NCBI GenBank assembly: GCA_013036095.1
Contig: JAAXCW010000003.1
Span: 248,001-312,000 of the forward strand
Source: Vulcanimicrobiota bacterium
GTDB taxonomy: Bacteria > Vulcanimicrobiota > Vulcanimicrobiia > Vulcanimicrobiales > Vulcanimicrobiaceae
Direction of reading: 5' to 3'
Length of the DNA stretch: 64,000 nt
The stretch's first letter is position 1, and every line of letters begins with the position of its first letter. Shown piece after piece: positions 46,525 to 63,690 of the stretch. A program made the translations under genes and the position numbers. The notes beneath the pieces were generated by a model. That model worked only from the letters and a program-made list of their open reading frames with translations. It was not told the origin of the DNA and did no database searches.

Positions 46525-46600
46525 TCCGGATTAGCTCAGTTGGTAGAGCAGCTGACTGTTAATCAGCGGGTCGTTGGTTCGAGTCCAACATCCGGAGCCA
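46525..46600 (+). tRNA. tRNA-Asn(GUU), CCA encoded
   Basis: Acceptor TCCGGAT/ATCCGGA, D-arm AGCTCAGTTGGTAGAGCA, anticodon loop CTGTTAA (anticodon GUU), variable AGCGGGTCGT region, T-arm GTTGG-TTCGAGT-CCAAC, discriminator G and encoded CCA. Its 3' 45 bp recur exactly at 58710-58754, marking it as an integration site. Confidence 0.96.
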
Positions 46601-46603
46601 TGT

Positions 46604-46638
46604 AAAAGCCCGCCAAGCTTAGCGTTTGGCGGGCTTTC
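46604..46638 (+). terminator. Terminator after tRNA-Asn
   Basis: AAAAGCCCGCCAA, loop GCTTAGCG, TTTGGCGGGCTTT. Begins 4 nt after the tRNA CCA. Confidence 0.8.
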
Positions 46639-47030
46639 CATTTACGACGACGTTGCGTCGCACGATCTTCGAGCTGGCTCCGAACGAATTGTGCCTGAGC
46701 CGCTGACTAGCGCGCCGTTCGGCGCAAGTATGCCTGGTTTGTATTCTAGCGTGAGGCAGCTGCTGAGGTTAGCGGCTTCTTCGCGGTGAATGGAAAGCCG
46801 CTATCCTGAGCCCCAGGCGAGGAAGGGAAGATCGGTGCCCAGCGTCCTACTGGCGTTCCCCCTATGGCGTGGCACTATATAGTAAGGAGGGGACAATAGG
46901 CCAAAATGTTCGCCCCTTCCCAATGTTCCTGGCGTTGACATCTACTAACACTCGCCCTGGGGACTGAGCGAAACGATCAGGACGGTCTAACGGATGTAGC
47001 GCATGTGGCTTCCCTCATGGATCTGACAGA
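46639..47030. other. Gene-free stretch at the left end of the island
   Basis: I see no supported gene. It holds a degenerate CTATCCTGAGCC...GGAAGGGA string (around 46802) reminiscent of the 42-bp repeat family and a GGGGACAA...TTCGCCCC imperfect inverted repeat (46892-46917). Confidence 0.4.
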
Positions 47031-47906
47031 TCAAGGCTCGCGAATCAACGAGTTACTTGTCCCCGCATTGAACGCGCCTTTGCCGGCGGGGATACCTTCA
47101 AATGAAATGTCGATCCAATCGAACCAATGACGAATTGGACGCTCGCTGATTTCGTGCGCGATATAAAGCGCACCATCGACATGTTGGAACGTGACTGTCC
47201 ACGGTACGCTGGAGGTTCCGGCGTCCATAAAGTTTCCGTCTGTGCGCAATCGGTCGGTTGCGAAAGTCTTCCGATCGACCCATACGTCGCGCAATCGATA
47301 TTTGCGCGGATCGCGAGTTGGAATGAGAGATAAGTGATAGTCGGGATGATCACCGACCTGCTCGATTCCAATGAGCGTGATCTTATACGCGGATGAAGAG
47401 GAGAAAACGTGTGCGATGGTTTTCGGATACTGCTGCTCCAATTGCGCGATCTTATCCGGCGCCGGATCGTGGTATTCGGCTCGGATTTCGGCCACGAGTT
47501 CCGCTGGCGTGAGCGCTTCCGGTGGAACGTACTCGGCGATGCCAAACGAATAATTCGGAGCCAAGACCGGCACGCCGACCAAATCGCCGTTCGTTCCGGT
47601 ACCTTCATTCGGGCCGCCGATATGTCCGATGTGCACGAGGATCGAGACATCGAAGCCCGGCGGCGGCCGATAAGGGTGCGCGCGCTCCTCGACGCTGATT
47701 GGATCGACGGCAACGTTATTGGATATCGCCAACCAACGCGAGAGGTAGTGTCGCTGCTCAGGTTTTTGTCGCCTAAGCGTCTCGACATGAACAACATAAT
47801 TCACAGAGGATGGGTAGTGTTGGGATTGCCAAGCCCGCTCCGCTCGTTCGAAGACCCAGTAGGGGTTAACACCCAAAGTGACGAGCATCAGCAACGCAAG
47901 CTTCAT
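47031..47906 (-). CDS. Exported protein, possibly LolA/RseB-fold
   Basis: 291 aa. Short hydrophobic N-terminus (MKLALLMLVTLGVNPYWVFE) as signal peptide, then a domain with strands and the segments SVNYVVHVETL and VWVDRKTFATDRLRTDGNF, which recall LolA-like lipoprotein-carrier folds. The likeness is weak. Divergent from the sigma factor gene; a lone minus-strand gene in the island. Confidence 0.55.
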   Translation of the reverse strand: MKLALLMLVTLGVNPYWVFERAERAWQSQHYPSSVNYVVHVETLRRQKPEQRHYLSRWLAISNNVAVDPISVEERAHPYRPPPGFDVSILVHIGHIGGPNEGTGTNGDLVGVPVLAPNYSFGIAEYVPPEALTPAELVAEIRAEYHDPAPDKIAQLEQQYPKTIAHVFSSSSAYKITLIGIEQVGDHPDYHLSLIPTRDPRKYRLRDVWVDRKTFATDRLRTDGNFMDAGTSSVPWTVTFQHVDGALYIAHEISERPIRHWFDWIDISFEGIPAGKGAFNAGTSNSLIREP

Positions 47907-48044
47907 GCCGTTCCCCTTCCCAAAGGAGCCCTTGGGGACCCTTCGCCGCGGCGGTCGAAGCGGCTAAGAATCGTGTTTCCGCAAGATCCCAACACTTTAC
48001 CGGGTTAGGCTCCTCTCTTTGCCAAACAGACGAAGCGAGGGGCT

Positions 48045-48578
48045 ATGAGGTTGCTCGTACCGCCAGAGATCATCGAAGCGGCACGCGATGCGCAAGCGCC
48101 AGCGGTAGAAGAGCTTCTGCGCGTGGTCTGGCCACACGCCTTCCGCATCGCACGCTCAATTATCGGGGACGACGCCCTCGCGCAAGATGCAGCGCAGGAG
48201 GCTTCTGCGATAATTTATCGCGATATTCCACGCCTGCGCTCTGTGGATGCCTTTCGCGCATGGGTGTATCGAATCGCGACCCGGGAAGCTGTACGCGTCG
48301 CAAAGCGCCATGCTGCATATGTCAGCCAATCTGTGGCCGAGCCCGAAACTGATGTTGATGCACGACTGGACATCTTACGGGCCTTAGGGCACTTGTCAGT
48401 CGATTTGCGCGTTGCCGTCGTTCTTCACTATTACGCTCACCTAAACAGCGCTGAAATCGGCGCCGCGCTGGGAGTTCCAAGCGCGACGGTACGTTTTCGG
48501 ATCGCGCTTGCGCGCAAGCGATTACAAAAGCTGCTTCGACCCGAGCCTTCTGGCGCGATCGCGGAGGCATCTTCATGA
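48045..48578 (+). CDS. ECF-type sigma factor, island-borne
   Basis: 177 aa. Sigma-2 region: WPHAFRIARSIIGDDALAQD, AFRAWVYRIATREAVRVAKR; sigma-4 helix-turn-helix: LNSAEIGAALGVPSATVRFR then IALARKRLQKLL. The next gene overlaps it by ATGA and encodes a membrane protein, probably its anti-sigma factor. It may direct the exported-protein genes that follow. Confidence 0.88.
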   Translation: MRLLVPPEIIEAARDAQAPAVEELLRVVWPHAFRIARSIIGDDALAQDAAQEASAIIYRDIPRLRSVDAFRAWVYRIATREAVRVAKRHAAYVSQSVAEPETDVDARLDILRALGHLSVDLRVAVVLHYYAHLNSAEIGAALGVPSATVRFRIALARKRLQKLLRPEPSGAIAEASS

Positions 48579-49198
48579 AACCGGAAATCCTGAGCAACCT
48601 CGAATCAGCGGTGGACGCCTTGCCCGTGCCGGCATTCGACTTTGCAGCCATTCAAGCGCAGGTCGGTCGCCTGGCGAACCGCTCAGTTGTCAGACGGAGA
48701 ACCCTGATCACCGGAAGCGCTTTGATTATCGTATTGTCGGCCTTAGCAGCGGCAGCTAGCTATTTCACGCATCTCAACGTTGGTCATCGCTTTGGCACGT
48801 GGCAAGTTTATGGGCCGCGAGTGGCGATAAACTTGCATCCAACGCAGAAAACGTTAGACCAACTTGCCCGCAACGCGCCGTATCGCGTCATCTGGCCGAG
48901 CGCACTTCCCAAAGGAACCAGGCTGCGCATGGCCGGCAGCATGGCATCGGAGTTGATGATACTCGGCTACGATTGTGCTCACACAGGAATATTGCGATTC
49001 GCTATCATTCCGCACAGTTCGGACGCAATAAACCCCAAGCTGCGAATGTGGCTTTCCAGTCTGAAAGTTAAACAGGGAATAAATCAGGATTGGCAAGTCG
49101 CTGAGGAACGGGTTCACGTACAAACGAATTGCCTCACTAACAGCCAGATACAAACAATCCGGTCGGCCATGCTGCGGAACGCAAAGCGGTTACCTTAA
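48575..49198 (+). CDS. Membrane protein, probable anti-sigma factor
   Basis: 207 aa. Cytoplasmic part (~55 residues) without a zinc motif, one membrane helix (TLITGSALIIVLSALAAAAS, about 43-62), then an outer domain with two Cys (YDCAHTG, QTNCLTN). The ATGA overlap with the sigma factor and the topology suggest anti-sigma activity; the class is not recognisable. Confidence 0.6.
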   Translation: MKPEILSNLESAVDALPVPAFDFAAIQAQVGRLANRSVVRRRTLITGSALIIVLSALAAAASYFTHLNVGHRFGTWQVYGPRVAINLHPTQKTLDQLARNAPYRVIWPSALPKGTRLRMAGSMASELMILGYDCAHTGILRFAIIPHSSDAINPKLRMWLSSLKVKQGINQDWQVAEERVHVQTNCLTNSQIQTIRSAMLRNAKRLP

Positions 49199-49360
49199 GA
49201 GACGCCCAAGGGCCCTAATGTGTTGACAGAAACTGCGCAACGAGATGGAGCGCATTGGAAACAAACCTCCACAGAACCGATGAATGCTGAGAACCACGTC
49301 CTTTATTACGTGGCAGTTTTTCGGTCGAGGATGGCCGTGCGTAACCTCGAAGGATTACGG

Positions 49361-51829
49361 ATGCGGCCTCGGGTGGCGCTTGTTTCCTTGCTCTTGCCGT
49401 TGGTCGCGGTCTTCTTTCTCAACGTGAAAGCGGCGGCGCAAACGGATAGTCAAAACCAAACGGGCACGCTCATCGTCACCATTACCGATGCGGCTACAGG
49501 TAAGCCCGTTGACAACGCAGACGTTTACTTGCTTGGCAGCGAGTCTCCAACGGCGTCGCTGAGCGATGCTAGCGGGCTGGCCGTTTTTGCCGGTTTGGCT
49601 CCAGCCTATTACCGCGTGCGCGTGGAGGCGGACGGCTACGCCCCCACACGAACGGCCGATCTCGACTTGAGTCCCGGGCAAAAAATCGCAATCATTGTGA
49701 AATTAGCGCGCAATGCTTCCGCGCTCAAAACCATCGCGTCAGTCGTTGCACATAGATCGGACGTTTTTGTGGTCGACGTCACCAGCGAAAGCGCGCAGCG
49801 AATGGTGTCGCAAAATTTGGCCGATGCGCTCGATAAGCTCGCTGGCGTAAGTGTCTCCAACGAACTCTATGGCCCGAATTCCTCATTCAGCATCGCCTTG
49901 CGGGGCGCAGATCCCAGCCAAACGGGCTACCAAATCAACGGCGTCCAGGTGACCGGCAACGCCGCGCAGACGGCCGGCGTACTGCAAGACCTATTTACGG
50001 GAGCATCGATAAGCTTTGCACCAAGCGCGCTCGGGCCGGCGGGGACAGTCAATTTCTTCACGTTGCAGCCGTCGAGACTCTGGAGCTACAGTTTTTTGGG
50101 AAGCCTGGGGAATTACGGGCTTACGACCGGCTCTTGGAACGTCTCTGGCGGCATCGGCAAAATGATGCTCGCGCTGCAGCACAGCGCCTCCGGTGGTGAT
50201 TCGCCGTTGGAGGGGCTCTTTTATGAGGACCAAACCGGCAATGCATACCAGCACACCGGCGGCTATGTTCGCAACAGCAATCTTTTTACTATTTCCACAC
50301 CGATTTCGTCCGTTTCCACCATCCGCTATACCATAACGCAGGGTCTATCCAGCTCGACGTACATTTGCGCGAGCGCCACGGCGCTGCTGCCATGCAGCAG
50401 TGGCCCAGACAGTACGTCGGCTACGTCGACGACCAGCCAAAGCTTCAATTTCGGATCGCTTCTGGGGCATTGGATCTACAATCTGAACGCCAACTATTCA
50501 GTGAACCGCAACCAGCAAGCCGAGCCAAACCGCGCGGTAAACGGCATGCTTGTCCCATTGGTTTCAAGCGGCGCAAACAGCTCGCTCAACCTGTCCAGTT
50601 CCTTGAACAAGCTGGTCCGGCGCCATACAATATCGGCGAGCATCTCCGGGAGTGCCGATAGCGCCGCCTATACTTCCACGTACAACGCCACCCAGAGCGT
50701 CCAGAATGCCGTGGCTTATCGCACTTTTTCGGCCGAGTTGAGTGATGCGGTGAAAGCCAGCGACAAGCTCACGATGCAATACTCGCTCTCGCATTCTAGC
50801 GGAACGGGCACGGGGAGCACCATCGAGGCGTCCAGCTCGGCGAACTGGCGACCGCAATCAGCGGATAGCTTCAACCTTGGAATTGGCGTCGGTAGCTCCA
50901 ATCCCGGCCCCAGCATTGCACGCGCCATCGGTGATCCACTCACCGCGCAATACGATTGCTTCAACGGATCGGTCTTTGTCCTCGGACCCAACGACCGGCC
51001 CACGCACCAGACGTCGTTGAACTATAACTTGGGCTGGAATCATGTCATCAAGAAAGATTCGTTTACGCTTCAAGCTTTCCGCACGGATTTGGGCGGACAG
51101 GCGATTCAGGGCGCCGTTCCGATCGCCGGCGAACCACCGGACATTTTCCCAAACGATTCTTTAGCGCAGTATCTGGCTGATCTGCAGAACACTTGGGCGC
51201 AACCCACCGTTTGCGGCTCGACGCCTTTTGATCCCACGCATGTCTACGTGACGCAATTGGTTTCAGGTGAGACGCGAATAACCCAAGGGTTCACGATATC
51301 CGGAAGGATCTCGCTCGGTAAGATCGCTCTGCTTCTACCATCGTATGCGATCACAAACTCATACTACTCGACGCTCGATCCGCGGTTGTTACTTCCGGGC
51401 AGCTACTACGGGCTCGGGGTTCAGGTTCCACGCGTCCCCGTGGCTAGGGCAGGGCTGATCGTCCAAAGCGCTGCGCAGCATTCACGGGTTGGCTGGTACC
51501 TCAATGCCCAGTACACTTCAGCGAATAATCCGGCCAATCAGCCGGCGTACACGATCTACAATGCAAGCTTGGTCTTTCAGGCCACGCGAGGAAATTTGGT
51601 ATTCTTTGCAGGCAATATTTTCGGAGCGCACACGGGCCTGTTTACCACCTATCAGGGTATCGACCCGTTGCCCACGCAGGGCGGCGGCAGCTTTGCGCTT
51701 GCAACAACGCCCTTACAGCCGCGATCTTTTTCCATTCAGTACCAGATTCGCGGCCAACAACACGCCAAACCGCTTCCTGCATCGCCTAGTCCTGGTCTTT
51801 CGTCACCTCCTGCCAAGCCGCCACACTAA
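49361..51829 (+). CDS. TonB-dependent-receptor-like outer-membrane protein
   Basis: 822 aa from ATG 49361 (AAGGA 6 nt upstream, start of the signal peptide RVALVSLLLPLVAVFFLNV); a longer frame reaches 49220. A carboxypeptidase-regulatory-like domain (GTLIVTITDAATGKPVDNAD) precedes a plug-like domain (NLADALDKLAGVSVSNEL, then IALRGADPSQTGYQINGV). The rest is a beta-barrel with many Ser/Thr/Tyr strands, but the end (PLQPRSFSIQYQIRGQQ, then a Pro-rich tail) does not close on the usual aromatic residue. Ligand unknown. Confidence 0.82.
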   Translation: MRPRVALVSLLLPLVAVFFLNVKAAAQTDSQNQTGTLIVTITDAATGKPVDNADVYLLGSESPTASLSDASGLAVFAGLAPAYYRVRVEADGYAPTRTADLDLSPGQKIAIIVKLARNASALKTIASVVAHRSDVFVVDVTSESAQRMVSQNLADALDKLAGVSVSNELYGPNSSFSIALRGADPSQTGYQINGVQVTGNAAQTAGVLQDLFTGASISFAPSALGPAGTVNFFTLQPSRLWSYSFLGSLGNYGLTTGSWNVSGGIGKMMLALQHSASGGDSPLEGLFYEDQTGNAYQHTGGYVRNSNLFTISTPISSVSTIRYTITQGLSSSTYICASATALLPCSSGPDSTSATSTTSQSFNFGSLLGHWIYNLNANYSVNRNQQAEPNRAVNGMLVPLVSSGANSSLNLSSSLNKLVRRHTISASISGSADSAAYTSTYNATQSVQNAVAYRTFSAELSDAVKASDKLTMQYSLSHSSGTGTGSTIEASSSANWRPQSADSFNLGIGVGSSNPGPSIARAIGDPLTAQYDCFNGSVFVLGPNDRPTHQTSLNYNLGWNHVIKKDSFTLQAFRTDLGGQAIQGAVPIAGEPPDIFPNDSLAQYLADLQNTWAQPTVCGSTPFDPTHVYVTQLVSGETRITQGFTISGRISLGKIALLLPSYAITNSYYSTLDPRLLLPGSYYGLGVQVPRVPVARAGLIVQSAAQHSRVGWYLNAQYTSANNPANQPAYTIYNASLVFQATRGNLVFFAGNIFGAHTGLFTTYQGIDPLPTQGGGSFALATTPLQPRSFSIQYQIRGQQHAKPLPASPSPGLSSPPAKPPH

Positions 51830-51888
51830 TACCCGTGCTGTCATTCTGAGGTTGGTCACGACAATCCACTGATGAACGCTATAACGGC

Positions 51889-53361
51889 ATGAAACGCGCG
51901 GCATTGGCGTTCGCACTGCTGCTTACCAGCGCGGCGGGAGCGTCCGCCTTGCAATTCGTCGAGCCGCCTAAACCACCAACGATCATATTCCAGGCCCCTT
52001 CGCATGGAGCGCTTGTCGTCGCGCTGGCCGATGGCGAGGGTTCCTCGCGATCGGATCGCGTCCTGATTCGTTATGCGATCGAAGGCGACCCCATCGCGAG
52101 CGGCTTCATGCAGCCGCCGGGCGAGCTTGGAAGTCACCGAAAAAACGTGACAGACGAGCAGATCGAAGACGCCGTCGCACAACTTGAGGACGGCGGCATC
52201 GACCCCCGTCGCATCTCTGCGCAGAGGTACCGTCCGTGGGATCTCGGTGGATCGCCGCAGGCCGTTGTCGGGCTGGTCTCGGTCTCGCTCGAGAACACTA
52301 CCCCCAACCAAGTCGAACAGGTCTACGCCGCGATGAGCAGCCGGCGCAGCGGGGACGTCTACGCCGGAACGTGGCAGATATCGGCAAGTTGCGACAAATT
52401 GGTGGCAGAGTCTCGACGAACTGCAGACGAAAATGCGAAGGAGCAATCGCGCGTCGTCGCTTTAACCTTGGGATTGCAACCATCCGACGGATCGTTGCAG
52501 CGAGTATATCGATCAGTTGATCCCAACGCTGGCGTGCGTTGGGCGACCGACATACGAGCCGCCACGTGCGCATTCCCGACGCTTCCAATTAACACATACT
52601 ACATTCCCATGCCATCGAGTCTTGCTTCGGCGCAAGTTGCGTCGCTTTCGATCTCCGCGTACCACGCCGCTCCGTCAGCACTTCCGCGCGAAGCAGTGCC
52701 AAAGCCGATGGCGCAAGTGGTCGATTTTTACGGCAGCGGCGATTACGACGGTAACAACGTCGTTTCGATCGATCCGGCGCAGCGTACGCCCATCATCCTT
52801 ACACAAGCACACCCTGCGGTGATGCTTGAACGCGCCGACGCCTGGCTCGTCACGCTCGTGTCCGTTGGGCGGGATCCGAGCATTTCCCATATCCTTCAAG
52901 CGAGCGGCATTCCGGATAGCGACGTTTTCGAGCGCGTGGATCCACAATCGTCGGCGCAAATCACACAGGTTCGTTTCAGGTCTATGACGCGCGCCCAGAT
53001 TTCGGAGCGCCTAGCAGCTTTGCGCGCAGCTTCCGAGCATGCACAGGCCGGCCTGACCGCCACCCACACGTTTGCATTCCTGAACTCGTGCAAGCAGGTA
53101 GAGAAATTCGCTTTACAACAGGCTGCTCTCCAAGCGAGGGCAAACGCGCGTTCAGCCGCAGCGGCTACGCAGAAGAGTTTGTCCGTGCCGGTCGCGGTAA
53201 TCACTGAGTTAGCCATCGGATCAATACGCTGCGGTCCGGTGCCGAAAGACGTTCGATCCATGGGGTACGCTCTCGCTTTGAACGCGAGCACGTCGGACGA
53301 TGCGCCCGATCAGGTCGGATCTCTTTTGCCCCGGGTCACGGTGATGTATGAGATACGCTAA
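51889..53361 (+). CDS. Exported protein with SIMPL/DUF541-like repeats
   Basis: 490 aa. Signal peptide to about residue 20 (LAFALLLTSAAGASA). The helix-rich pieces DENAKEQSRVVALTLGLQ and LQARANARSAAAATQKSLSV resemble the long helix of SIMPL domains, suggesting two copies; Cys residues appear near each (SASCDKL, LNSCKQ, SIRCGP). Not certain. The C-terminus overlaps the next gene by 14 nt. Confidence 0.5.
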   Translation: MKRAALAFALLLTSAAGASALQFVEPPKPPTIIFQAPSHGALVVALADGEGSSRSDRVLIRYAIEGDPIASGFMQPPGELGSHRKNVTDEQIEDAVAQLEDGGIDPRRISAQRYRPWDLGGSPQAVVGLVSVSLENTTPNQVEQVYAAMSSRRSGDVYAGTWQISASCDKLVAESRRTADENAKEQSRVVALTLGLQPSDGSLQRVYRSVDPNAGVRWATDIRAATCAFPTLPINTYYIPMPSSLASAQVASLSISAYHAAPSALPREAVPKPMAQVVDFYGSGDYDGNNVVSIDPAQRTPIILTQAHPAVMLERADAWLVTLVSVGRDPSISHILQASGIPDSDVFERVDPQSSAQITQVRFRSMTRAQISERLAALRAASEHAQAGLTATHTFAFLNSCKQVEKFALQQAALQARANARSAAAATQKSLSVPVAVITELAIGSIRCGPVPKDVRSMGYALALNASTSDDAPDQVGSLLPRVTVMYEIR

Positions 53362-54172
53362 CGGCGCGCTTCCCGCGATGCTGGCACTTACTGCCTGCGC
53401 CATCAGTGCGCACGCCCAATCGCCGTTCTTGAGAACTCCACGGGTTAAGATCCCGATTTCTACTCACGTGATCGACGTCGTCCCGACGCCATTGGCGCGT
53501 TCGCAGTACACCGACTCTTCAGATGTGACGCTCCCGCGCATCCGTGTTTTCGAAGCGAACGGAACGGCCAAAGCAACTGCAGCAGCCGACCTGACGTATT
53601 TTCACGTTGCGTTCGGCGCACGTGACATCCCAAGCACCACGTCGCCACGACCGATTACGGAAGATGATGCAAAGCCACTCCTCGACGGTCTCGCCGCGCA
53701 AGGCGTTGGTCGTCCGGCCATTCGTATTACCACGCGTGAAGACGCTTTTCAGCCACCTTGGCAAAGTGCGCGACCCGGATGGATCGACATCGCCTTCACG
53801 GTCCATCATCAGACCGGCGCGCAGCTGCGCCGGCTTGGCGAAATCATCCAGAAAGCGTCGGGCTATCCGACTTATCATGTCTTCAGCGACGCGATTCCGG
53901 CCGCGAAGAACTGCGATCACATCTTAGCGGCGGCCCGTTCATCGGCGTTTGCAAATGCGCAAAAGTTCGCATCGGAACAAGCCGCGGAATTACACCTGCA
54001 CCTCCGGAAGCTTCTAATCGTGCGCGAGGTGACTGTAAACGTGACACAGGGCCAGTGCGACTTCGAGGGTCCACACGGGCCGCCGCAGCTTGTCTATCGC
54101 AACGAAGAACCACCGGATCCGGGGATGGTCGTTGTGACAGCGCAGCTGCGCCTGATTTACATGACGTATTAG
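53348..54172 (+). CDS. Exported protein, SIMPL-like, partner of the upstream gene
   Basis: 274 aa with a signal peptide (GALPAMLALTACAISAHA). Helix SSAFANAQKFASEQAAELHL and the surrounding strands again resemble a SIMPL/DUF541 domain, so the two adjacent genes may be related in fold. Cys in NCDHIL and GQCDFE. Function unknown. Confidence 0.5.
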   Translation: MRYANGALPAMLALTACAISAHAQSPFLRTPRVKIPISTHVIDVVPTPLARSQYTDSSDVTLPRIRVFEANGTAKATAAADLTYFHVAFGARDIPSTTSPRPITEDDAKPLLDGLAAQGVGRPAIRITTREDAFQPPWQSARPGWIDIAFTVHHQTGAQLRRLGEIIQKASGYPTYHVFSDAIPAAKNCDHILAAARSSAFANAQKFASEQAAELHLHLRKLLIVREVTVNVTQGQCDFEGPHGPPQLVYRNEEPPDPGMVVVTAQLRLIYMTY

Positions 54173-54365
54173 TTCTCGGAACGCAAGAACGAATAGGATT
54201 CTTAAGGGCACCGAGAGCGCTCTACGTCGCCCTACCGAAATCGGAAGGTAAGCCCACGCGCGGAGAGGGCCAATCCAACGGTGCGTGATTCGTACTTCGC
54301 TGCGGCGCACTAAGTGAGACCAACGGTCACAGCTCCAGGTTCCCGCATGTTGACTAGAAAACTGT

Positions 54366-57164
54366 ATGCATATGATCGCGAAAGCCGGTCTATGTGCGTT
54401 ACTCCTCGCCGCATTTGTTCCGGCGGGGAAAGCGCTCATCGGCGCGGGTGGCTGTGCCGTCCCTAACAAGGATGCGACCCTTCAGGCGTTGCGCGTCATA
54501 CCGGTGCCGCACATTCCGCAACTCAAGCTACCCCGTCAGAAAACGGAAACGCAGGTACTGGTGCACATTTCCGGTTACGGCGTTGTGATGTCGACGAAGG
54601 TTGTAAAAAGCTCCGGTAACCCATTTGTCGACTTGCATGCAATGAGCTCTGTCCACATGAGCACATACTCCGGAAAAATTGTGAATTGTCAACCCATTCC
54701 AAGCGATTTGACGGTAAACGTTCTATACGATCCGAACGCGCGGCAGCCAACCCCGTTCCCGATGCGATCCTTACCTCCGACGCCGGTGCCTTCGGGTGAG
54801 CCGGCGCCGCCGATCCAAATCATCCAAGGTGCTGCGCTACCCTTACCAGCTTATGTCGCCCAACCGGCGGCGAAAAGAACACTTCCGCTCGCGTTGTTTT
54901 CGGGAAACTATGGGAATCTCGGAATGGCGAGCGCCGGCGGAATACTGTACTTCAACATCATCAATTCGCCGGAGGGTTTTTCCGCTGAAAGCCATCCGGT
55001 CGTTGCGGTTGACTTGAGCACCGGCGCGGTGCTATGGCGCCGCCGGTCGGGGATTGTCGCCGGCGCAAACCAGGCTGGCGTTATCGTGTCGGTCGCACCG
55101 CCCGAGAGCGAGATGCGAGCGTACACGCGCGACCTTACGGCCTACTTGCGTGCGCACAAGTCTCCCAAGAGCGTACTGACGGAGCTCGATCGGAAGACGG
55201 GGCGCCCACTTTTCGTTTTGCCGGGGACGGGGACGACCGGAGCTATCGACGGTGTTGCGTTCACCCAGGACGGAAGCATCTATAGTGCGTCGAGCGTTGC
55301 AACCGGCAAGCTGCTTTGGGCGAGCAACGGCGCGCCAAGTCTGGGCGCTCAAGAACCACCGGTTGTTCGCAACGATGTCTTACTTCAGACTGCGACCATA
55401 AGCGGCGCGATCACCGAAAATGTCTTGTACGCGTTCGACCTGCCAACGGGGCACGCGAAATGGGAAATGCTTTCCAACGAGAAGCCGCTGGGGTTCAAAA
55501 GCAACGTCGTGTACATCGACTCGACCTGGTTTCCACAGCGTATGGACTATTATATTCCGATGACGATCGCCGCGGTCGATCTCGCTACAGGGACAAAGCG
55601 CGATGAGTACACCTATCGTCCGGACCCGATTCCGAATGCAGCAGAAGATTATCGCCAGGCGCCGCTGATGGCATACGTCTCCAGTGGTTATGTGTACGTG
55701 ACCGTAAACAACCGATGGTACCGATACGTCGCGGAGCGCGAACCGGCGCAAGCCGCTCCAGTTAGCCTTGGCTCTCTCTCGGTGGACGCGACTTTTGAAA
55801 ACGGGCGATTGCTCGTGCATGAGAATCAAGGAACCTACATCGCCGAGAGTTCGCCGGACAGGCTGCAGCTGCACAGATTTGCTGAAGGCGACCTGCGTTC
55901 GAAGATTGTCGAACGTGAGGATGGGACGCGCTACGCGGTATTCGGCGGTACATTGTATGCGTTCGATCAAAACGCGGGCGTGCGCAGGGTCGGATCGGTC
56001 GAGAATTGCGCTTCGGCGTATTCGATTATCGCTTGGTCCGGTCACGTCGCCGTTTTGTGCGGCACCGCGGGCCAAAGTGCTACCGAACTTTTGTTTAACG
56101 ACAAAGCCGAACGTATTGTGGCGTTGCATATAACGCCGCAAACTCCGCCGCCATACCGCCTGCAAATACGCGAGTTTCAAGTTCCGGGTTCAAGTGCGGA
56201 TGGCCGTACGGGGCAATGGGGTGTCGGCCCCATGGCGCCTCTATCGAACGGCGGCATTGCGATTACGCTCGTGAATGAGCTGAAGAATTCCATCATGTAC
56301 GTGTCGCCTGGCGGGAAGATGAGGCGCGTACCGATTGCGCCGGAGATTGCGCCTCCAACGCCAAATGCGAATCCAACTCCGTACCCGACAGGCCCGCCGA
56401 TATTTTCCAATTGGCCACCGCGAGGGCCATCGCCAAATCAATTGGTCGCCGGAAAGCGCGGCACGTTATGGTTCAACGACGTTTGGCATCCGGATATTAC
56501 TTCGCTCAGTCCCGGAGGTACGTTAGCGACGAGGGCAGTGGGAGCCGGAAGCAACGCGCGTTTCAGCTCGGCCATCATTCGACTCGCTTCGACACCTGAC
56601 GGTGAAGTGTGGTACGCGCGCTCGCTGCCAACTCCGCAGATCGGCCGCGCTGATGGTTCATTGAAGTTTGATATTCCTGCGCAATACGGGAATCCGGCAG
56701 TTTTCCTTGGCGGAAGCGATAACGCGCTCTGGTTCTTTTCGGCGGCATCGCTCGTTCGCGTCACAACACGCGGGCAGTTCACTTCGATTGCGCTGCCTTC
56801 GAAATTAACGGACCGGCGCACCGGCCCTCCGGTTGTTACCAGTGGCTCCAGAGGAACGATCTGGGCAGCTGAGCGCGAGACGATTTATCATATAGGCTCA
56901 GCCGGTGTTCTCGGCGAGCATACTCTTCCCGACGCAACACTATCGGTAGGAGCCATGGCGACGGGCTGCGATGGGTCGCTCTACGTTACACCAGGGTATC
57001 AGGGCGTGCTGTTTCACCTGCGTCCCAACGGCGTTTTCGAAAGATATCAAGTGCCGTTTTACGTGAGCAACATCATGCGCGCGCCGGATTGTACAATCTG
57101 GTTTGTGCAAGGGACGAATTATCCAACGACGAGCGTCGGCACTTTCAAACTCGTGCCGCGATGA
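54366..57164 (+). CDS. Large exported mosaic protein: TonB-C-like domain plus two propeller types
   Basis: 932 aa. Signal peptide to about residue 23. Residues ~65-130 (VLVHISGYGVVMSTKVVKSS, FVDLHAMSSV) look like a TonB/TolA C-terminal domain. A Pro linker follows. Residues ~170-600 carry PQQ-type propeller strands (TGAVLWRRRSGIVAGANQ; ATGKLLWASNGAP). The last ~300 residues read like a virginiamycin-lyase-type propeller (GSDNALWFFSAASLVRVTTR, GTIWAAERETIYHIG). Architecture inferred from repeats only. ATGA overlap with the next gene. Confidence 0.6.
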   Translation: MHMIAKAGLCALLLAAFVPAGKALIGAGGCAVPNKDATLQALRVIPVPHIPQLKLPRQKTETQVLVHISGYGVVMSTKVVKSSGNPFVDLHAMSSVHMSTYSGKIVNCQPIPSDLTVNVLYDPNARQPTPFPMRSLPPTPVPSGEPAPPIQIIQGAALPLPAYVAQPAAKRTLPLALFSGNYGNLGMASAGGILYFNIINSPEGFSAESHPVVAVDLSTGAVLWRRRSGIVAGANQAGVIVSVAPPESEMRAYTRDLTAYLRAHKSPKSVLTELDRKTGRPLFVLPGTGTTGAIDGVAFTQDGSIYSASSVATGKLLWASNGAPSLGAQEPPVVRNDVLLQTATISGAITENVLYAFDLPTGHAKWEMLSNEKPLGFKSNVVYIDSTWFPQRMDYYIPMTIAAVDLATGTKRDEYTYRPDPIPNAAEDYRQAPLMAYVSSGYVYVTVNNRWYRYVAEREPAQAAPVSLGSLSVDATFENGRLLVHENQGTYIAESSPDRLQLHRFAEGDLRSKIVEREDGTRYAVFGGTLYAFDQNAGVRRVGSVENCASAYSIIAWSGHVAVLCGTAGQSATELLFNDKAERIVALHITPQTPPPYRLQIREFQVPGSSADGRTGQWGVGPMAPLSNGGIAITLVNELKNSIMYVSPGGKMRRVPIAPEIAPPTPNANPTPYPTGPPIFSNWPPRGPSPNQLVAGKRGTLWFNDVWHPDITSLSPGGTLATRAVGAGSNARFSSAIIRLASTPDGEVWYARSLPTPQIGRADGSLKFDIPAQYGNPAVFLGGSDNALWFFSAASLVRVTTRGQFTSIALPSKLTDRRTGPPVVTSGSRGTIWAAERETIYHIGSAGVLGEHTLPDATLSVGAMATGCDGSLYVTPGYQGVLFHLRPNGVFERYQVPFYVSNIMRAPDCTIWFVQGTNYPTTSVGTFKLVPR

Positions 57165-57784
57165 TGGAGAGTTTCGATTTTGCGCGTCGACTGGCTTGCT
57201 TGGTCATAACGATTCTGTGGGCATCCGCGGTTACGCCAGATGCACTCGGACAGGACTTCTCCCATCGGGCCGACTTGGATGGCCGTTCTGCAATGGCGCT
57301 GCAACGCGCGGCGGCGAAATTTGCTAACGACAACCCAGGGAGTATCGGCGCGTTACGATCGTACGAGGTGTTGTTTAAAGAGACGACGCCCGGAATATTC
57401 TCAGTCGAATTCGCCCCGAAGGCGCCAGGTGTACCTTCTGCGTATTACAATGTTCCGGTTAACCTGGGATCTCCGGCGAAGCGAGCCGCTCACCAGCCGG
57501 ATCTAACTGGAGCGCGGCAGCTAACGGGCGACTATGTGCATGCGCTTAAAGTGGCGTACGAATTCTGGAAGGACACCGCTATTGGACGGCGATTTGGCCT
57601 GCTAAGAGCAGCGGCCACGATTACGCAGCCTTATCCGGGAACCCCGGCGGCGTCAGTCTATTGGGTTTACTTCTCGCCACCGGAGACAAGCAGACCTCGG
57701 TTGACGGTCGGCTGTGGCGTTGAGCGCCGGTTTTCGGTGAATTTTTCAAGCGACAGCGTCACGCCGCTCAAACCCGTTTGCTAA
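57161..57784 (+). CDS. Exported protein of unknown function
   Basis: 207 aa from ATG 57161, chosen for the ATGA overlap (a start at 57164 or earlier is possible). Signal-like stretch LACLVITILWASAVTPDALG. Mature part has one Cys near the end (TVGCGVERRF) and a mixed alpha/beta character (VEFAPKAPGVPSAYYNVPVN). Not recognised. Confidence 0.5.
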   Translation: MMESFDFARRLACLVITILWASAVTPDALGQDFSHRADLDGRSAMALQRAAAKFANDNPGSIGALRSYEVLFKETTPGIFSVEFAPKAPGVPSAYYNVPVNLGSPAKRAAHQPDLTGARQLTGDYVHALKVAYEFWKDTAIGRRFGLLRAAATITQPYPGTPAASVYWVYFSPPETSRPRLTVGCGVERRFSVNFSSDSVTPLKPVC

Positions 57785-57824
57785 TAACGAAAGCGGGGAT
57801 ATCTAGCTTGTTTTTCGCGCTACG

Positions 57825-58528
57825 ATGGCGTGGGCTGGACTGACGTTTATGAATCTTTCTATTTTTTCAAAACGGATTATTTTCGCCGCCTCGTTACTGC
57901 TGATATCTGGCGCGTTGACACCAACCCCTACGATATCTGCAACTCCAATCGATGAAAGTGATGCGAGAATAGCAGATGCGCTACAGTCGCTACAACGGTT
58001 TTCTTTGCAGCGATCGCTGACCGATCTGCAGGAAGCGATCGGCATCCTTACCTCAGCAATCGACATCAGAGCGATTAGTAGGGGTGACCTGGTCGCCAAG
58101 CGCCGTCAGGTTGTCGGAGCGTGGGGTCGAATTTTCAAAGCAATAGAAGACTCAACTGATCCGACGTTTGATCTTAGTAATCGAAACAATATTCCAGACC
58201 AATGTGTTACGCCTCCGAGAGAGGCCAATGGTAGGCAGCTCCCGTCCTGCGCAGACCCGGCGGATGTTACGGATCCGGTAGCGCGAGCAAAGTATATCGC
58301 TGCTATCAACGCAAACGACCTGAAAAGCAGCGCGCCGGCTACCAAGCACGACTGCGTTATTTGGACGGCGGTGCAATGTCTTCACTCCAGATGGAGCTGA
58401 ATAATTTCCGTCCTGTTGCGCCCGGAGATGCTCCGGAGCTAATGATGATCTTAAGAGGCGCAGGACTGAGCAGCGCGAGGCTTGCAAAAATACAAGCCAT
58501 GATGTCCTCTTCGGTTCCTGCTCGCTAG
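57825..58528 (+). CDS. Exported protein (probable one-base frameshift)
   Basis: As read it stops at 58400 after an odd tail. Adding one A at AAAA 58323-58326 restores a helical continuation (KKQRAGYQARLRYLDGGAMS, SLQMELNNF, then a Met-Met-Ser end) to a TAG at 58526-58528. Signal peptide (IFAASLLLISGALTPTPTIS); ATG 57849 is an alternative start. Charged helical repeats in the middle (ADALQSLQRFSLQRSLTDLQ) suggest a coiled or TPR-like scaffold. Not recognised. Confidence 0.5.
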
Positions 58529-58709
58529 AAGAGTTCGCAAATTTTCCCCTTAGTTTTAACGGCCTTTCTTCCTCACAAAAAGGCAGTGCGGGTGACGGTT
58601 TGTTGACCCCCACGTTTGACCCCCGCCGCATCTAGCTGCATACGTCTAAATTGCTCTTAAACCGCCCCATCCACGAGGGATTCGGAACTTGCCGCAGGAC
58701 TGCCGGGTT

Positions 58710-58754
58710 CTGTTAATCAGCGGGTCGTTGGTTCGAGTCCAACATCCGGAGCCA
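58710..58754 (+). repeat. 45-bp copy of the tRNA-Asn 3' end (attR-like)
   Basis: Identical to 46556-46600: anticodon loop and stem, T-arm, acceptor 3' side and CCA. The 5' half of the tRNA is missing, so it is not functional. A hairpin terminator (58759-58796) follows. Confidence 0.9.
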
Positions 58755-58758
58755 AGTG

Positions 58759-58796
58759 AAACGCCCGTCCTGTAAGGGGAACGGGCGTTTTATTTT
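58759..58796 (+). terminator. Terminator after the attR-like copy
   Basis: AAACGCCCGT, loop CCTGTAAGGGGA, ACGGGCGTTT then TATTTTC. Confidence 0.75.
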
Positions 58797-58944: not shown

Positions 58945-59769
58945 ATGCGCATCTTGCTGGCATTCTCGCTAATTCTCTCGCTGGCATCGGCCAAGTTGAC
59001 GATCGTGACCGGGAACCATGAACCATGGGTTAACAATAGCCGTTGGATCAAAGGCGATAAGATCGCATTTCTATATTCGCGTCCACGCAAATCCGGCGAT
59101 TGGGTGCTGCGCGAATACCTTCCCGCCCATGCGTCGTCCGCGGCGCATTTTCACAGCCGGGGTGAGGCCAATACCGTGCTTTCCGGAACGTTGTACATGG
59201 GCTTTGGCGATAAACTAGACGCCTCACACGTCGTGGCCTTACCGCCAGGGTCGTATATCTACATTCCAGCGGGCGTCCACCACTACGCCATCACCAAAGA
59301 TTCATCTGTGCTGCTGGAGGAGCGCGGCGAGGGACCATTTCACAGCACGCGCGTTGCAAACGCTCGCGGGCAACACGGTTCGGAAGCGAAACCCATCATC
59401 GTCATCGCTGGGCACGAGCAGTGGAAGCCGCAGGCAGGTTTCGCCGAATCGACGATGCTTCTACGCGGAAGTCGAACTGGCGATCACGAATGGCGCGAGA
59501 ACATTCGCGCGAGCTATACGTCGCCTGTGCTCATGCACCGCGTAGGCGAGGCGAACACCGTACTTTCAGGAAGGGAGTGGTTGGGTGTCGGCGACACACG
59601 CGATCTGCGCCACGCAACCCTGCTGGGCCCCGGCTCGTTCGTGTACATACCGGCAGGCGTGCATCATTACGTTATTACGGGCGGTCAACCAGTAGTCTTA
59701 CAGGGAAGCGCGACGAGCAAGCTCGGTACGGTCGTCATTCCCTCACGCGGCAATTTGAAATCCAGATAG
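58945..59769 (+). CDS. Exported two-domain cupin (bicupin)
   Basis: 274 aa. Signal peptide to ~Ala16. The first cupin has both motifs: HFHSRGEANTVLSG (two His and Glu) and PPGSYIYIPAGVHHY. The second repeats them: MHRVGEANTVLSG and GPGSFVYIPAGVHHYVIT, but the first motif has only one His. So the first domain keeps a standard metal site and the second may not. Cupins are metal-dependent or structural small-molecule binding folds; role unknown. It is the only gene between two tRNA-Asn 3' copies. Confidence 0.8.
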   Translation: MRILLAFSLILSLASAKLTIVTGNHEPWVNNSRWIKGDKIAFLYSRPRKSGDWVLREYLPAHASSAAHFHSRGEANTVLSGTLYMGFGDKLDASHVVALPPGSYIYIPAGVHHYAITKDSSVLLEERGEGPFHSTRVANARGQHGSEAKPIIVIAGHEQWKPQAGFAESTMLLRGSRTGDHEWRENIRASYTSPVLMHRVGEANTVLSGREWLGVGDTRDLRHATLLGPGSFVYIPAGVHHYVITGGQPVVLQGSATSKLGTVVIPSRGNLKSR

Positions 59770-59999: not shown

Positions 60000-60089
60000 G
60001 ACTGTTAATCAGCGAGTCGCTGGTACCGTCATCCTGAGTAGCACATCTTCGATGTGCGTGTCGAAGGGCGAGTCCAACATCCGGAGCCA
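60000..60089 (+). repeat. Third tRNA-Asn 3' copy, interrupted by a palindromic repeat
   Basis: GACTGTTAATCAGCG continues (with two changes) to ...CGCTGGT at 60024, breaks for a 42-bp repeat (60028-60069) plus 3 nt, and resumes as GAGTCCAACATCCGGAGCCA to 60089. The following ATGTAAAAG matches the sequence after the intact tRNA. Confidence 0.8.
60028..60069 (+). repeat. 42-bp palindromic repeat, copy inserted in the tRNA-Asn remnant
   Basis: GTCATCCTGAG start, hairpin GCACATC-TTC-GATGTGC, end CGAAGGGC. Confidence 0.8.
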
Positions 60090-60093
60090 TGTA

Positions 60094-60120
60094 AAAGAGG
60101 CCGCTACGGGCGGCCTCTTT
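60094..60120 (+). terminator. Terminator after the third tRNA-Asn copy
   Basis: AAAGAGGCCGC-TACGG-GCGGCCTCTTT followed by CCTTTG. Confidence 0.75.
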
Positions 60121-60125
60121 CCTTT

Positions 60126-60180
60126 GTCATCCTGAGCCGCGCATCTGCGATGCGCATGGCGAAGGGCGTCATCCTGAATA
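60126..60180 (+). repeat. 42-bp palindromic repeat followed by a truncated copy
   Basis: Full copy at 60126-60167 (GTCATCCTGAG, hairpin GCGCATC-TGC-GATGCGC, end CGAAGGGC), then GTCATCCTGAATA (60168-60180), the left end of a second unit. Confidence 0.75.
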
Positions 60181-60311
60181 GCGTTCGCACTCGTCTCTCA
60201 CTCGTGCTCGGCGCCGCGATCGCGCTCGCGGGAGGGGCTTGCCGACGCCGTCGCATGCCGACGGTTAGGCCACCAGGGCTTAGCGTGTCGTCGGTAGATG
60301 CCAGGCGGCGT

Positions 60312-60877
60312 TTACTGTTGTCTCAAGAGCTGCCTTACCTTCGCCAACAGAACCGCGTTTGCAGAGCGCGTTAGGTTGCCCGCCGGACGAAAACTGCGAT
60401 CGGCGTTCAGCGGCAAGATTCCGTATTGTATCGCGAGCGCAAAATATGGCGCCGCCAACGGGGGCCAATCTTTCGCATCTGATGCGAGGTCCCGAATCGC
60501 GCGAACGTCGCTCTCGGTCGGCTGTGCGAGTTTTTTGCATTCTCTAGAATACGCACCGCGGCAAGCGCAGCTAAACCTCGACTCATGGGATCGTCAGGAA
60601 AGGATTTACGCGTGAACATACAGCTCATACATAACGGTCGCGGGTTCAAGTACGACGTGAGGGCTTGCAACGCGGGGAAAAGCCTATCGCTGGGGCTCAC
60701 ATCCACGTACGCAGGCAACTTTTGAGCGTTCGGCAACTTCGCGATTTGTTCGAGTTGAATCACGAAGTTTCCGCGATTAGCGGGGTCGTTCGCGGAAACG
60801 GATGGTACCGTTGCCATTCCTACGACGGGAATCGCGACGAATAAAAACAGCAACGCGTTCGTCAATTGTCGCCACAT
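60312..60877 (-). CDS. Exported SLH-domain protein (probable one-base frameshift)
   Basis: From ATG 60877 (GGAGG upstream; an earlier ATG at 60895 is possible). Signal peptide (LLFLFVAIPVVGMATVPSVS), then S-layer-homology-like sequence: NRGNFVIQLEQIAKLP, DVSPSDRLFPALQALTSYL and SFPDDPMSRGLAALAAVRIL. The frame as written ends at 60407 with a poor tail. One more A at the run 60531-60536 restores a second SLH-like unit (LAAPYFALAIQYGILPLNAD, RSFRPAGNLTRSANAVLLAK) ending at 60312. SLH domains attach proteins to the cell wall or outer surface. Confidence 0.65.
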
Positions 60878-61002
60878 AGATCCTCCGGGTAACAAATGCC
60901 CGTCATCCGCCCTGCATGTCTCCCCTTGCCAGCAAGACTAAGGCTTTGGACGTTCAGTATAACACTAAGTGAGGCGACCTCCATCTGGCTTCGTTCAGGT
61001 GC

Positions 61003-61008
61003 TATAAT
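61003..61008 (+). promoter_or_regulatory. -10 box of a leaderless gene
   Basis: TATAAT, 7 nt before the ATG at 61016, placing the transcription start at or next to the start codon. No Shine-Dalgarno is seen. A -35 element is not clear. Confidence 0.55.
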
Positions 61009-61015
61009 AAGCGAA

Positions 61016-61858
61016 ATGCGCCTGATTACATTGGTGCTGACACTGCTTTGTTGGTCGATTCCGCTCGTGAGTTTTGCGGATTCTCCGGCATGGCTAAACC
61101 AAATGGGAGTAGTCTTTCCGGCAGAAGTTAACGCATTGAACTTTCCGGACTATCAATTCGTCGATAGCACCCACACAACGGTGCTGGGCGAATGGACCGT
61201 AGGTTTGAACGGGCTACATCGACCAACTGCGAGCCTGACATCGCCCTGTTCGCGGGCGTTCAACGGCTCACACGAGACCTGCGAGATGACGATCGATGAC
61301 CTGGTTTGCCGGAACTCAGCAACTATCACCCCCTGTAAGATGCTATTGGAATACGCAAATTGGGTCGATGAGTACGACTGCTCCCTTTCCATCAGCACCG
61401 AAAACGTAAGCATGCGGTACTGCCCGGAAGTCCAGTTTGTGGCCGGCGGCAAAACGATTGGGCCGCGAAGCTTCAGCGCAGTACCAGTGCTGTCGCGTCC
61501 CGTAGTTCGATGGGTTACCGTTCACAACAACACCACCGACCCAATTGCGGACATATCGGTCGAATTCAGCTGCTGCGGTTCGAGCAGTGAGATGTGGGCG
61601 GTCCTCTTAAGTGCCGATGCCGGCGACACGCCAATCGGCCCGGGCCAAGCGCGGGCGCTACTGCTTCCGCGATCGCTGATCGGCAACGTTTCGACCAAGG
61701 ATCCTAGCGTCGTGGATCGCGATCAGATAGATCTCACCGGTCAGTGTGTGGCTCAAGGCGTCGCCGTTCATTTAAAGTCCGCAAAATTCGGGCCGTGGAG
61801 TGAAACTCTCGGGGCGATCGATCTCTGCAAGGTCGCCATCAACGTGAAGCCTTTTTGA
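61016..61858 (+). CDS. Exported Cys-rich protein of unknown function
   Basis: 280 aa from ATG 61016, chosen for the signal peptide (MRLITLVLTLLCWSIPLVSF) and the TATAAT box 7 nt upstream; a longer open frame back to 60896 has no family character. The mature protein has about ten Cys (for example SPCSRAF, HETCEM, LVCRNS, EFSCCGSS), suggesting disulphides outside the cell, and strands typical of a beta-sandwich (PVVRWVTVHNNTTDPIADIS). Not recognised. Confidence 0.6.
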   Translation: MRLITLVLTLLCWSIPLVSFADSPAWLNQMGVVFPAEVNALNFPDYQFVDSTHTTVLGEWTVGLNGLHRPTASLTSPCSRAFNGSHETCEMTIDDLVCRNSATITPCKMLLEYANWVDEYDCSLSISTENVSMRYCPEVQFVAGGKTIGPRSFSAVPVLSRPVVRWVTVHNNTTDPIADISVEFSCCGSSSEMWAVLLSADAGDTPIGPGQARALLLPRSLIGNVSTKDPSVVDRDQIDLTGQCVAQGVAVHLKSAKFGPWSETLGAIDLCKVAINVKPF

Positions 61859-61922
61859 CGACTAGCGTCGCGTTGGCGAAACCTGAGCGCAAGCGAGGTC
61901 CTAGCATTATTGAGATTCTTAC

Positions 61923-62495
61923 ATGAATAATAGTACGGCCGATCACATCCGCGACGAGCTCTTCGCTGCGATACGCCGTAAGGACGAGAAGGCGTTCCAG
62001 CAGTATTGCTCGACGCATCAGGGGACGATCCTTACAAACTTCGGTAATTGGCAGCGGTCACCCGAATCGATTCGGGACGACGAGAACGCGGTGGAGGAAT
62101 ACGGGCGCGCGCTACTGACAATTGCGAATCACTTTGAGTCGCTGGGTCATCCGGAACTGCTCGACTTACTAAAGCCCCCTGCGGACTTGTTTGATTCGGC
62201 GTCCGTGAAGTTTGCGCAAGCGAACGCTCTTGCGGCTCGACAAGAGTATGAGGCAAGCAACGTTTTGATAAAGGAGGTACTACATGTTGTTGAAAGGTGG
62301 CGAGGGCCGGGGGTGGCCGGTTTTCGAGCCAAGGTTTATGGCCTGCTCGGCACTAATTATTTTCGACTGCTGCAGTTCGAGAACGCGCGACGCTATACGG
62401 AACTAGCGCTGCTGGATTGCAAAAACGTCGGCGACCAGGAAGGCATTCGGATCTACCGTGAAAACCTCCAAGTACTCAACGATGCCGGCTCGTAA
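61923..62495 (+). CDS. TPR-like helical protein
   Basis: 190 aa, no signal peptide. Helical pairs resembling TPRs (EYGRALLTIANHFESLGHPE; FAQANALAARQEYEASNVLI; YGLLGTNYFRLLQFENARRY). Probably a cytoplasmic protein-interaction module. Separate from its neighbours by 64 and 143 nt. Confidence 0.6.
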   Translation: MNNSTADHIRDELFAAIRRKDEKAFQQYCSTHQGTILTNFGNWQRSPESIRDDENAVEEYGRALLTIANHFESLGHPELLDLLKPPADLFDSASVKFAQANALAARQEYEASNVLIKEVLHVVERWRGPGVAGFRAKVYGLLGTNYFRLLQFENARRYTELALLDCKNVGDQEGIRIYRENLQVLNDAGS

Positions 62496-62638
62496 GATTT
62501 CGGTACCGTGCTCCTCTACGTAGACGAATGCAAAGGCAGCGATCAGGCTACCAGGCTCCTTACAACGTACAGGCTGCGTGCGGGAAGATTAACGAAAGTT
62601 TCCGTACTGGCGCACAAGCTTTAGAATTTGTTTCACGA

Positions 62639-63655
62639 GTGAAATTGTTATGCTCGTCCTACCAGCCCTTCGCTGTCGCAATTTTGTCCCTTGCGCTGGT
62701 TCAGTGCGGCGGTCCGGGTGGCAGTAGCGCGGCGACGCCAATCGTAACGCCCTCGCTCACGCCGGCGATTACGGAGTACTCCGCCGGCATTTCGCCAGGC
62801 TCACAGCCTTACGATATTGCTGCTGGCTCGGACGGCGCACTTTGGTTCACCGAATTTAGCGATAACCGCATCGGTCGGATCACAACCGGCGGCGCTGTTA
62901 CCGAATACGCCGCTGGTATTTCGGCAGGCGCTGGGCCGGGGAGCATCGCCGCCGGCCCAGACGGCGCTCTCTGGTTCGCGGAATATAGTGGAAGTCGCAT
63001 CGGCCGAATCACGACCAACGGAGTGGTGACGGAATACTCGGCGGGAGTTTCACCAAACGCAGGTTTGACCGGCATCGCGGCCGGTCCCGACGGTGCGCTG
63101 TGGTTCACCGAAGTTGTCGGCCGAATTGGACGGATTACAACAGCCGGTTCCGTGACGGAGTTTTCCGCGGGTATTTCAGTGGGCGCGCAGCCATTCAGCA
63201 TTGCGGCCGGCTCCGACGGTGCGCTCTGGTTCACCGAAGTCGGCGGACGGATCGGCCGCATTACAACGGTGGGTGTCGTCACGGAATTCTCAGCGGGCAT
63301 TTCGGCAAACGCTATCCCCACGGGCATCACGGCCGGCGCAGATGGCGCCCTCTGGTTCACTGAAGTCGGCACAAACCGGGTAGGCCGGATTACAATCGGC
63401 GGTTTGGTCACAGAGTATTCCGCCGGTATTTCGGTAAGCGCTCAACCATTCGGCATTGCGCTGGGTCCGGACGCCGCTCTTTGGTTCGCCGAGTACAATG
63501 GTAACCGGATCGGCCGAATTACAACCGGCGGAGCAGTTAGCGAATACGCGGCTGCTCTTTCAGCCAACGCCAATCCGAATGGCATCGTCGCCGGCTCGGA
63601 TGGTGCGCTCTGGTTTACAGAAGCCGGCGCCGATCGGATCGGGAGGCTAAAATAG
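62639..63655 (+). CDS. Exported seven-bladed propeller protein (virginiamycin-B-lyase-like)
   Basis: 338 aa from GTG 62639, which opens a signal-like segment ending LALVQCGG (lipobox-like, though Gln before Cys is unusual); a longer frame starts at 62528. After a Thr/Pro linker come seven ~42-residue repeats built on VTEYSAGIS...GIAAGPDGALWFTE...NRIGRITTGG. Blade number and motif match Vgb/streptogramin lyase propellers, but so regular a set is more typical of surface repeat proteins. Lyase activity is not claimed. Confidence 0.75.
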   Translation: MKLLCSSYQPFAVAILSLALVQCGGPGGSSAATPIVTPSLTPAITEYSAGISPGSQPYDIAAGSDGALWFTEFSDNRIGRITTGGAVTEYAAGISAGAGPGSIAAGPDGALWFAEYSGSRIGRITTNGVVTEYSAGVSPNAGLTGIAAGPDGALWFTEVVGRIGRITTAGSVTEFSAGISVGAQPFSIAAGSDGALWFTEVGGRIGRITTVGVVTEFSAGISANAIPTGITAGADGALWFTEVGTNRVGRITIGGLVTEYSAGISVSAQPFGIALGPDAALWFAEYNGNRIGRITTGGAVSEYAAALSANANPNGIVAGSDGALWFTEAGADRIGRLK

Positions 63656-63690
63656 CTGCGGCGGTGCGGCTGTCAGCAGATGCGCCGGCG

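Follow-up and report, generated by a model that had tools for sequence, protein, structure and literature searches.

A 12.1-kb block of DNA in the genome of an uncultured soil bacterium, assigned to the Candidatus Eremiobacterota, lies between a complete tRNA-Asn gene and an exact 45-bp copy of the end of that gene, and contains no integrase. It is probably a non-autonomous, CIME-like island that was put in by recombination of the tyrosine-recombinase type; since it is without an integrase, it would be movable only when a helper integrase is supplied. The window, i.e., the whole stretch of 64,000 nucleotides that was analysed, belongs to contig C3 of a 2.58-Mb MAG with 6.6% contamination. Below, G000 stands for the host genome, other G numbers for the genomes of relatives and C for a contig.

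tRNA-Asn, its repeats and the flanks

The target, tRNA-Asn(GTT), is the sole tRNA gene that ARAGORN finds in the 64-kb window, and the repeat spans the part from C32, the first base of the anticodon loop, to the CCA end. Integration at an anticodon-loop sublocation was reportedly described by Williams in 2002, and the boundary here likewise lies at the anticodon loop. The first-pass annotation had stated that the end of tRNA-Asn recurs exactly at 58710, which is correct: the pair remains 96% identical when extended to 52 bp, and dinucleotide shuffles of the sequence gave 0 matches by chance. Downstream of the second copy there is a 1.2-kb segment with a cupin gene and then a third, broken copy of the tRNA 3′ half, so that the locus is a tandem array in the order tRNA, 12.1 kb, copy 2, 1.2 kb, copy 3 (Table 1). 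Directly 3′ of the CCA of each att copy stands a hairpin resembling a rho-independent terminator, which differs among most copies and species. The first of these hairpins is unlike that of most relatives and 83% like the one that follows an att copy in G006, G005 and G001, and the sequence directly 3′ of tRNA-Asn in G004 is like that after copy 3 (91% over 46–68 bp), as insertion of two upstream segments predicts.

The REP-like palindrome (GTCATCCTGAG...TCGAAGGG) that splits the third copy abuts tRNA-Asn position 56 (CGAGTCCARCATCCGGAG), and one junction is found across several genera, i.e., in the window (60026–60089) and at G005:C90:11519 and 16206, G030:C23:160783, G035:C21:258006 and G102:C23:35706, with similar, less clear cases in G072 and G097. 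The palindrome may have inserted repeatedly into the T-loop as a REP element, or may represent a unit of a second type.

Table 1. Features of the tRNA-Asn array, in positions of the 64-kb window
Positions	Strand	Feature	Remarks
46525–46600	+	tRNA-Asn(GTT), putative integration target, kept intact	ARAGORN; Rfam
46556–46600	+	Left 45-bp repeat, left att core	C32 to CCA
46605–46643	+	Terminator-like hairpin, first copy	directly 3′ of CCA
47031–47906	-	Cargo: exported LolA-like protein	weak match, E=0.0018, below cut-off
48045–48578	+	Cargo: ECF sigma factor	profile match
48575–49198	+	Cargo: putative anti-sigma factor	4-bp overlap with sigma gene; no family match
49220–51829	+	Cargo: TonB-dependent receptor with CarboxypepD_reg domain	
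51889–53361	+	Cargo: SIMPL/DUF541 protein	74% identical paralogue at G000:C2
53348–54172	+	Cargo: second SIMPL-like protein	weak match; 76% identical paralogue at G000:C2
54366–57164	+	Cargo: exported BamB/Vgb-type beta-propeller protein	
57089–57784	+	Cargo: protein without assigned function	no family from Pfam, NCBIfam, PHROGs
57825–58400	+	Cargo: protein without assigned function	partial homologue in arm element G001:C14
58601–58709	+	Conserved right arm (arm A)	two GACCCCC sites; abuts right repeat
58710–58754	+	Right 45-bp repeat, right att core	
58762–58795	+	Second terminator-like hairpin	after CCA of copy 2
58945–59769	+	Cupin gene	second (1.2-kb) repeat-bounded segment
60002–60089	+	Third tRNA-Asn 3′-half copy	split by REP-like palindrome (about 60026–60068)
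60094–60120	+	Third terminator	91% like sequence directly 3′ of tRNA-Asn in G004
60121–64000	.	Rest of variable zone	not conserved among relatives

The left flank is syntenic up to the tRNA in G001, G002, G004, G005 and G006, among which ahcY, metK and the gene of a 212-aa protein are present completely or partly, and a stretch of 1.5 kb at 83–91% identity reaches the tRNA. Homology on the right begins within four bases of 64533, i.e., 533 bp beyond the window end (locus L010), and is common to G001, G002, G003, G005, G006 and a second-strain contig in the bin; it covers phyH, an ornithine-cyclodeaminase-like gene (OCD), topA, trmFO and hslVU, names that, except for topA, come from reading the protein sequences. 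The variable interval between the flanks measures 17.9 kb here, 17.3 kb in G002 and 39.2 kb in G006, and its content differs in every genus genome compared. Since the flanks are conserved among genus mates and the interior is different in each genome, the tRNA-Asn locus can be regarded, on this synteny, as an integration hotspot. The island genes are missing from the tRNA-Asn loci that were fetched from genus mates, apart from a 35% partial match of the gene at 57825–58400 in G001:C14, so relatives with the same genes in synteny but without the repeats, which the first-pass annotation had named as evidence against integration, did not turn up. None of the genus genomes has an empty site with both flanks joined. 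The GC content of the island is 57.1%, compared with 61.0% (sd 0.5%) on the left. The start of the repeat, the recurrent junction described below, the synteny of the flanks and the GC content give good support to the site-specific integration that had been proposed at first.

A second topA is located at G000:C18:9759–12345, 94% identical over most of its length and with a different upstream region; this contig appears to come from a second strain or species in the bin, which is consistent with the contamination of the MAG.

A conserved arm next to unrelated cargo

The 109 bp that precede copy 2, termed arm A, are 75–93% identical to sequences preceding other att copies, with similarity that reaches about 174 bp in some pairs. 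There are 13 copies in five of the seven genus genomes (one in G000, four in G001, two in G003, three in G005 and three in G006), a count that includes one G005 copy cut by an assembly gap and one G006 remnant without att. Most arm A copies have the junction GGGTT/CTGTTAATC (GGGTT/CTGTTAA), and the junction of the island also occurs at arm-bearing copies from four sister species. The cargo ahead of arm A is unrelated between elements: PPK2, a P-type ATPase and an aldo-keto reductase in G006, heme-copper oxidase subunits in G005, a propeller in G003, and a multicopper oxidase common to G006, G005 and G001 at 97% protein identity (functions in relatives are a reading of their sequences; the library search covered the window genes). 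An element common to three species at 97% protein identity is 2.4 kb long and holds one gene. The left ends of the elements are not conserved, apart from the terminators and a few pairs. Among GTDB genomes arm A is confined to the genus of the host, and neither arm A nor an autonomous element bearing it was found in IMG/VR, PLSDB or INPHARED, nor was such an element present in the genomes searched; the tRNA-Asn half gave ordinary tRNA-Asn matches in plasmids and phages and none in IMG/VR. Arm A was also considered as a folded attC-like site and rejected, since with z-scores of +2.2 and +2.5 it is less folded than shuffles on either strand.

The cargo of the 12.1-kb block was searched against Pfam, NCBIfam and PHROGs, and its functions are those implied by domain content. 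These libraries gave no recombinase, relaxase or phage structural protein in the island. For phage packaging, capsid and replication genes, the PHROGs matches comprised only the sigma factor and one weak unknown, and the reading of the island as a phage satellite or prophage was dismissed, because PHROGs shows no phage-related genes there. Of the sigma/anti-sigma pair in the first-pass annotation, the sigma factor is confirmed as ECF by a domain match, whereas the anti-sigma factor has no family match and is placed by its position. Since the pair precedes the genes of a TonB receptor and of exported proteins, the cargo may have a function in uptake or at the cell surface that is under regulation. 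Both SIMPL genes have paralogues (74–76% identical) that lie side by side at G000:C2:125554–127831; the first SIMPL protein is absent from 97 other family genomes and has a distant homologue in G023.

The protein encoded at 57825–58400 matches, with 35% identity across 106 aa, the C-terminal half of the product of a like-placed gene in G001:C14. Related arm-adjacent genes occur in three elements (G003:C104:3209–3829, G001:C14:5523–6644 and 57825–58400 of the window) and encode a two-domain protein, whole in G001 and represented by one half each in G003 and in the window. This gene was considered as part of the machinery of the elements and is treated here as cargo, since it has homologues elsewhere without a detected att site.

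The missing integrase and the ways to explain it

It was claimed from the outset that no recombinase lies between the repeats, and both the libraries and tblastn bear this out: with 27 tyrosine recombinases of the host and its relatives as queries, the island gave no intact gene and no remnant at E<0.1. Tyrosine integrases are located at or near tRNA-Asn or an att copy in G024, G062 (two), G021, G023, G102 and island 2 of G006, and those of G006 and G102 sit within tandem arrays. Since the tRNA-Asn integrases of the family do not form one group in a tree, in which several forks are weak, different integrases appear to have converged on tRNA-Asn. In a strict census of repeat-bounded segments at tRNA-Asn in the family, an integrase was present in none of five arm elements and in five of 15 others (two of the latter, G114 and one in G111, are flanked on both sides by complete tRNA-Asn genes and may have arisen by gene duplication), a difference too small to establish a separate lineage without integrase; with arm elements counted that have an interrupted or contig-end att, the figure is 0 of 9. 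Integrase-less segments bounded by repeats form the majority at tRNA-Asn among the family loci examined, and the island is not unusual among family tRNA-Asn segments.

The junction in the anticodon loop, the att arm, the exchange of terminators and the variable content between syntenic flanks are consistent with a tyrosine recombinase as the integrating enzyme, a class suggested by this anatomy and by the integrases of the neighbours. The stretch 46601–58754 would have been inserted into tRNA-Asn across the anticodon loop by site-specific recombination of this type. Because a tRNA 3′ half and a terminator would have come with the element, the tRNA would have been left intact and the older 3′ half displaced to the far end. 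Both att cores and the 109-bp right arm are still present; integrase and transfer genes are missing and would have been lost. Deletion is favoured by the arm-bearing island 1 of G006, which at 50 bp from tRNA-Asn retains 39 residues of an integrase (69% identical to a known one). The block may still move only if another tRNA-Asn element supplies an integrase, adjacent or in trans, as with CIMEs, and the circle would be predicted to join 58601–58754 to 46601 (arm A - CTGTTAATC...GGAGCCA - TGTAAAAGCCCGCC). Several findings count against this explanation: the island itself holds no integrase remnant, an autonomous arm-bearing element and an empty site in the genus were not found, and the integrase related to the G006 remnant is located near tRNA-Ala, not tRNA-Asn, in its closest relatives.

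A helper for the island, as the first-pass annotation had suggested, is plausible. The host genome has five PF00589 matches: a Xer, two proteins of a defence-like island on C6 (a phage-type integrase and a second recombinase) and a pair on C4; none of them is linked to tRNA-Asn. The phage-type integrase on C6, a candidate helper, groups weakly with integrases of mixed targets, and no direct repeats of at least 20 bp surround it in the 20 kb fetched. The integrase on G001:C85 was rejected as the helper of arm A, as its closest relatives are found near tRNA-Ala(GGC), not tRNA-Asn. By sequence reading, this apparent defence island (G000:C6:148001–168000) carries ThiF/E1-like, JAB-like and E2-like genes, a HipA-like toxin, a DNA methylase, an HTH excisionase-like gene and several tyrosine recombinases.

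It is conceivable, albeit rather unlikely, that arm A elements form a dedicated lineage of hitchhikers, made to move without an integrase and served in trans by a helper with affinity for arm A, much as MITEs or CALIN cassettes are. The spread of the arm before unrelated cargo (P-type ATPase and PPK2, multicopper oxidase, cytochrome oxidase, propellers) speaks for it, as do the census of integrases and the 2.4-kb one-gene element in three species; the counts are too small to separate the two classes, the remnant in island 1 of G006 points to deletion, and no helper bearing arm A was found in the genomes and databases searched. A related proposal, in which an arm A cassette family stacks at tRNA-Asn, each unit with its own 3′ half and terminator, and one helper recombinase is encoded elsewhere, is held to be unlikely; if true, the arm A family would be a tRNA-based cassette system for metabolic and surface genes. 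It is still less probable that the island arrived long ago with its own integrase, has since lost it and is now immobile. No integrase is linked to the block, the third att copy is broken by the REP-like insert, and the SIMPL cargo is not seen at tRNA-Asn elsewhere in the family, all as expected of such a fossil, but no difference separates the two repeats, the arm is complete and the island is confined to one species, all of which suggests that it arrived recently. Finally, an origin of the repeat by ordinary duplication or assembly misjoin, with no site-specific recombination, could draw on the contamination of the MAG and the related-strain contig with the second topA, but is highly improbable, since a like boundary and type of array occur in other assemblies and both flanks and the arm are conserved.

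Relation to known islands and significance

CIMEs are described as elements in which attL and attR persist although the integration and transfer genes have been lost, and which form tandem accretions (PMC5704250; PMC7563491). Like the CIMEs of Streptococcus described there, the island retains both att sites, one at each end, with no integration or transfer genes between them, and, as in accretion of CIMEs with ICEs and IMEs, tandem copies of 1.2–13 kb with metabolic cargo lie at the 3′ end of the target gene. Unlike in CIMEs, many copies here have one common arm and no known autonomous partner, the phylum is different, and no parent ICE or IME was found, a sister island having yielded the 39-aa remnant. 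Since no ICE or IME could be demonstrated as its ancestor, the island is called CIME-like rather than a formal CIME. The additive flexible genomic islands of Ca. Methylopumilus, in the parts of the source that describe them (PMC10872708), likewise array variable cargo, with short direct repeats that derive from a tRNA 3′ end, that of tRNA-Lys; the repeats given there are 20 bp long, compared with 45 bp and a 109-bp arm here, and those parts report no conserved arm. By analogy, the island would work like both CIMEs and these islands.

CALIN cassette arrays and MITEs (hitchers; PMC11389934) resemble the island in being non-autonomous, with the recombinase encoded elsewhere. In contrast to CALIN, no attC-like fold and no integron integrase were seen here and the target is a tRNA; the reading as CALIN or integron cassettes was rejected, as a foldable attC is lacking and the arm is no more structured than shuffles. 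As in Islander-style tRNA islands (PMC4383910), the ends are marked by a regenerated tRNA gene and a 3′ fragment displaced to the far end, and the insert is missing from relatives with syntenic flanks, where every site in the genus is occupied by something. Unlike in classical tRNA islands, the integrase gene, which is normally inside, is missing.

The kind of island is already known; what merits further work is the conserved arm, for which no autonomous partner is in sight. In a little-studied, uncultured phylum, one tRNA gene serves as a landing site for blocks of surface, respiratory and metabolic genes, which are gained and lost mostly without a recombinase of their own. With an arm common to 13 copies, the search for the helper has a concrete starting point, and so have tests of the spread of islands that lack an integrase, which for most genomic islands is still poorly understood.
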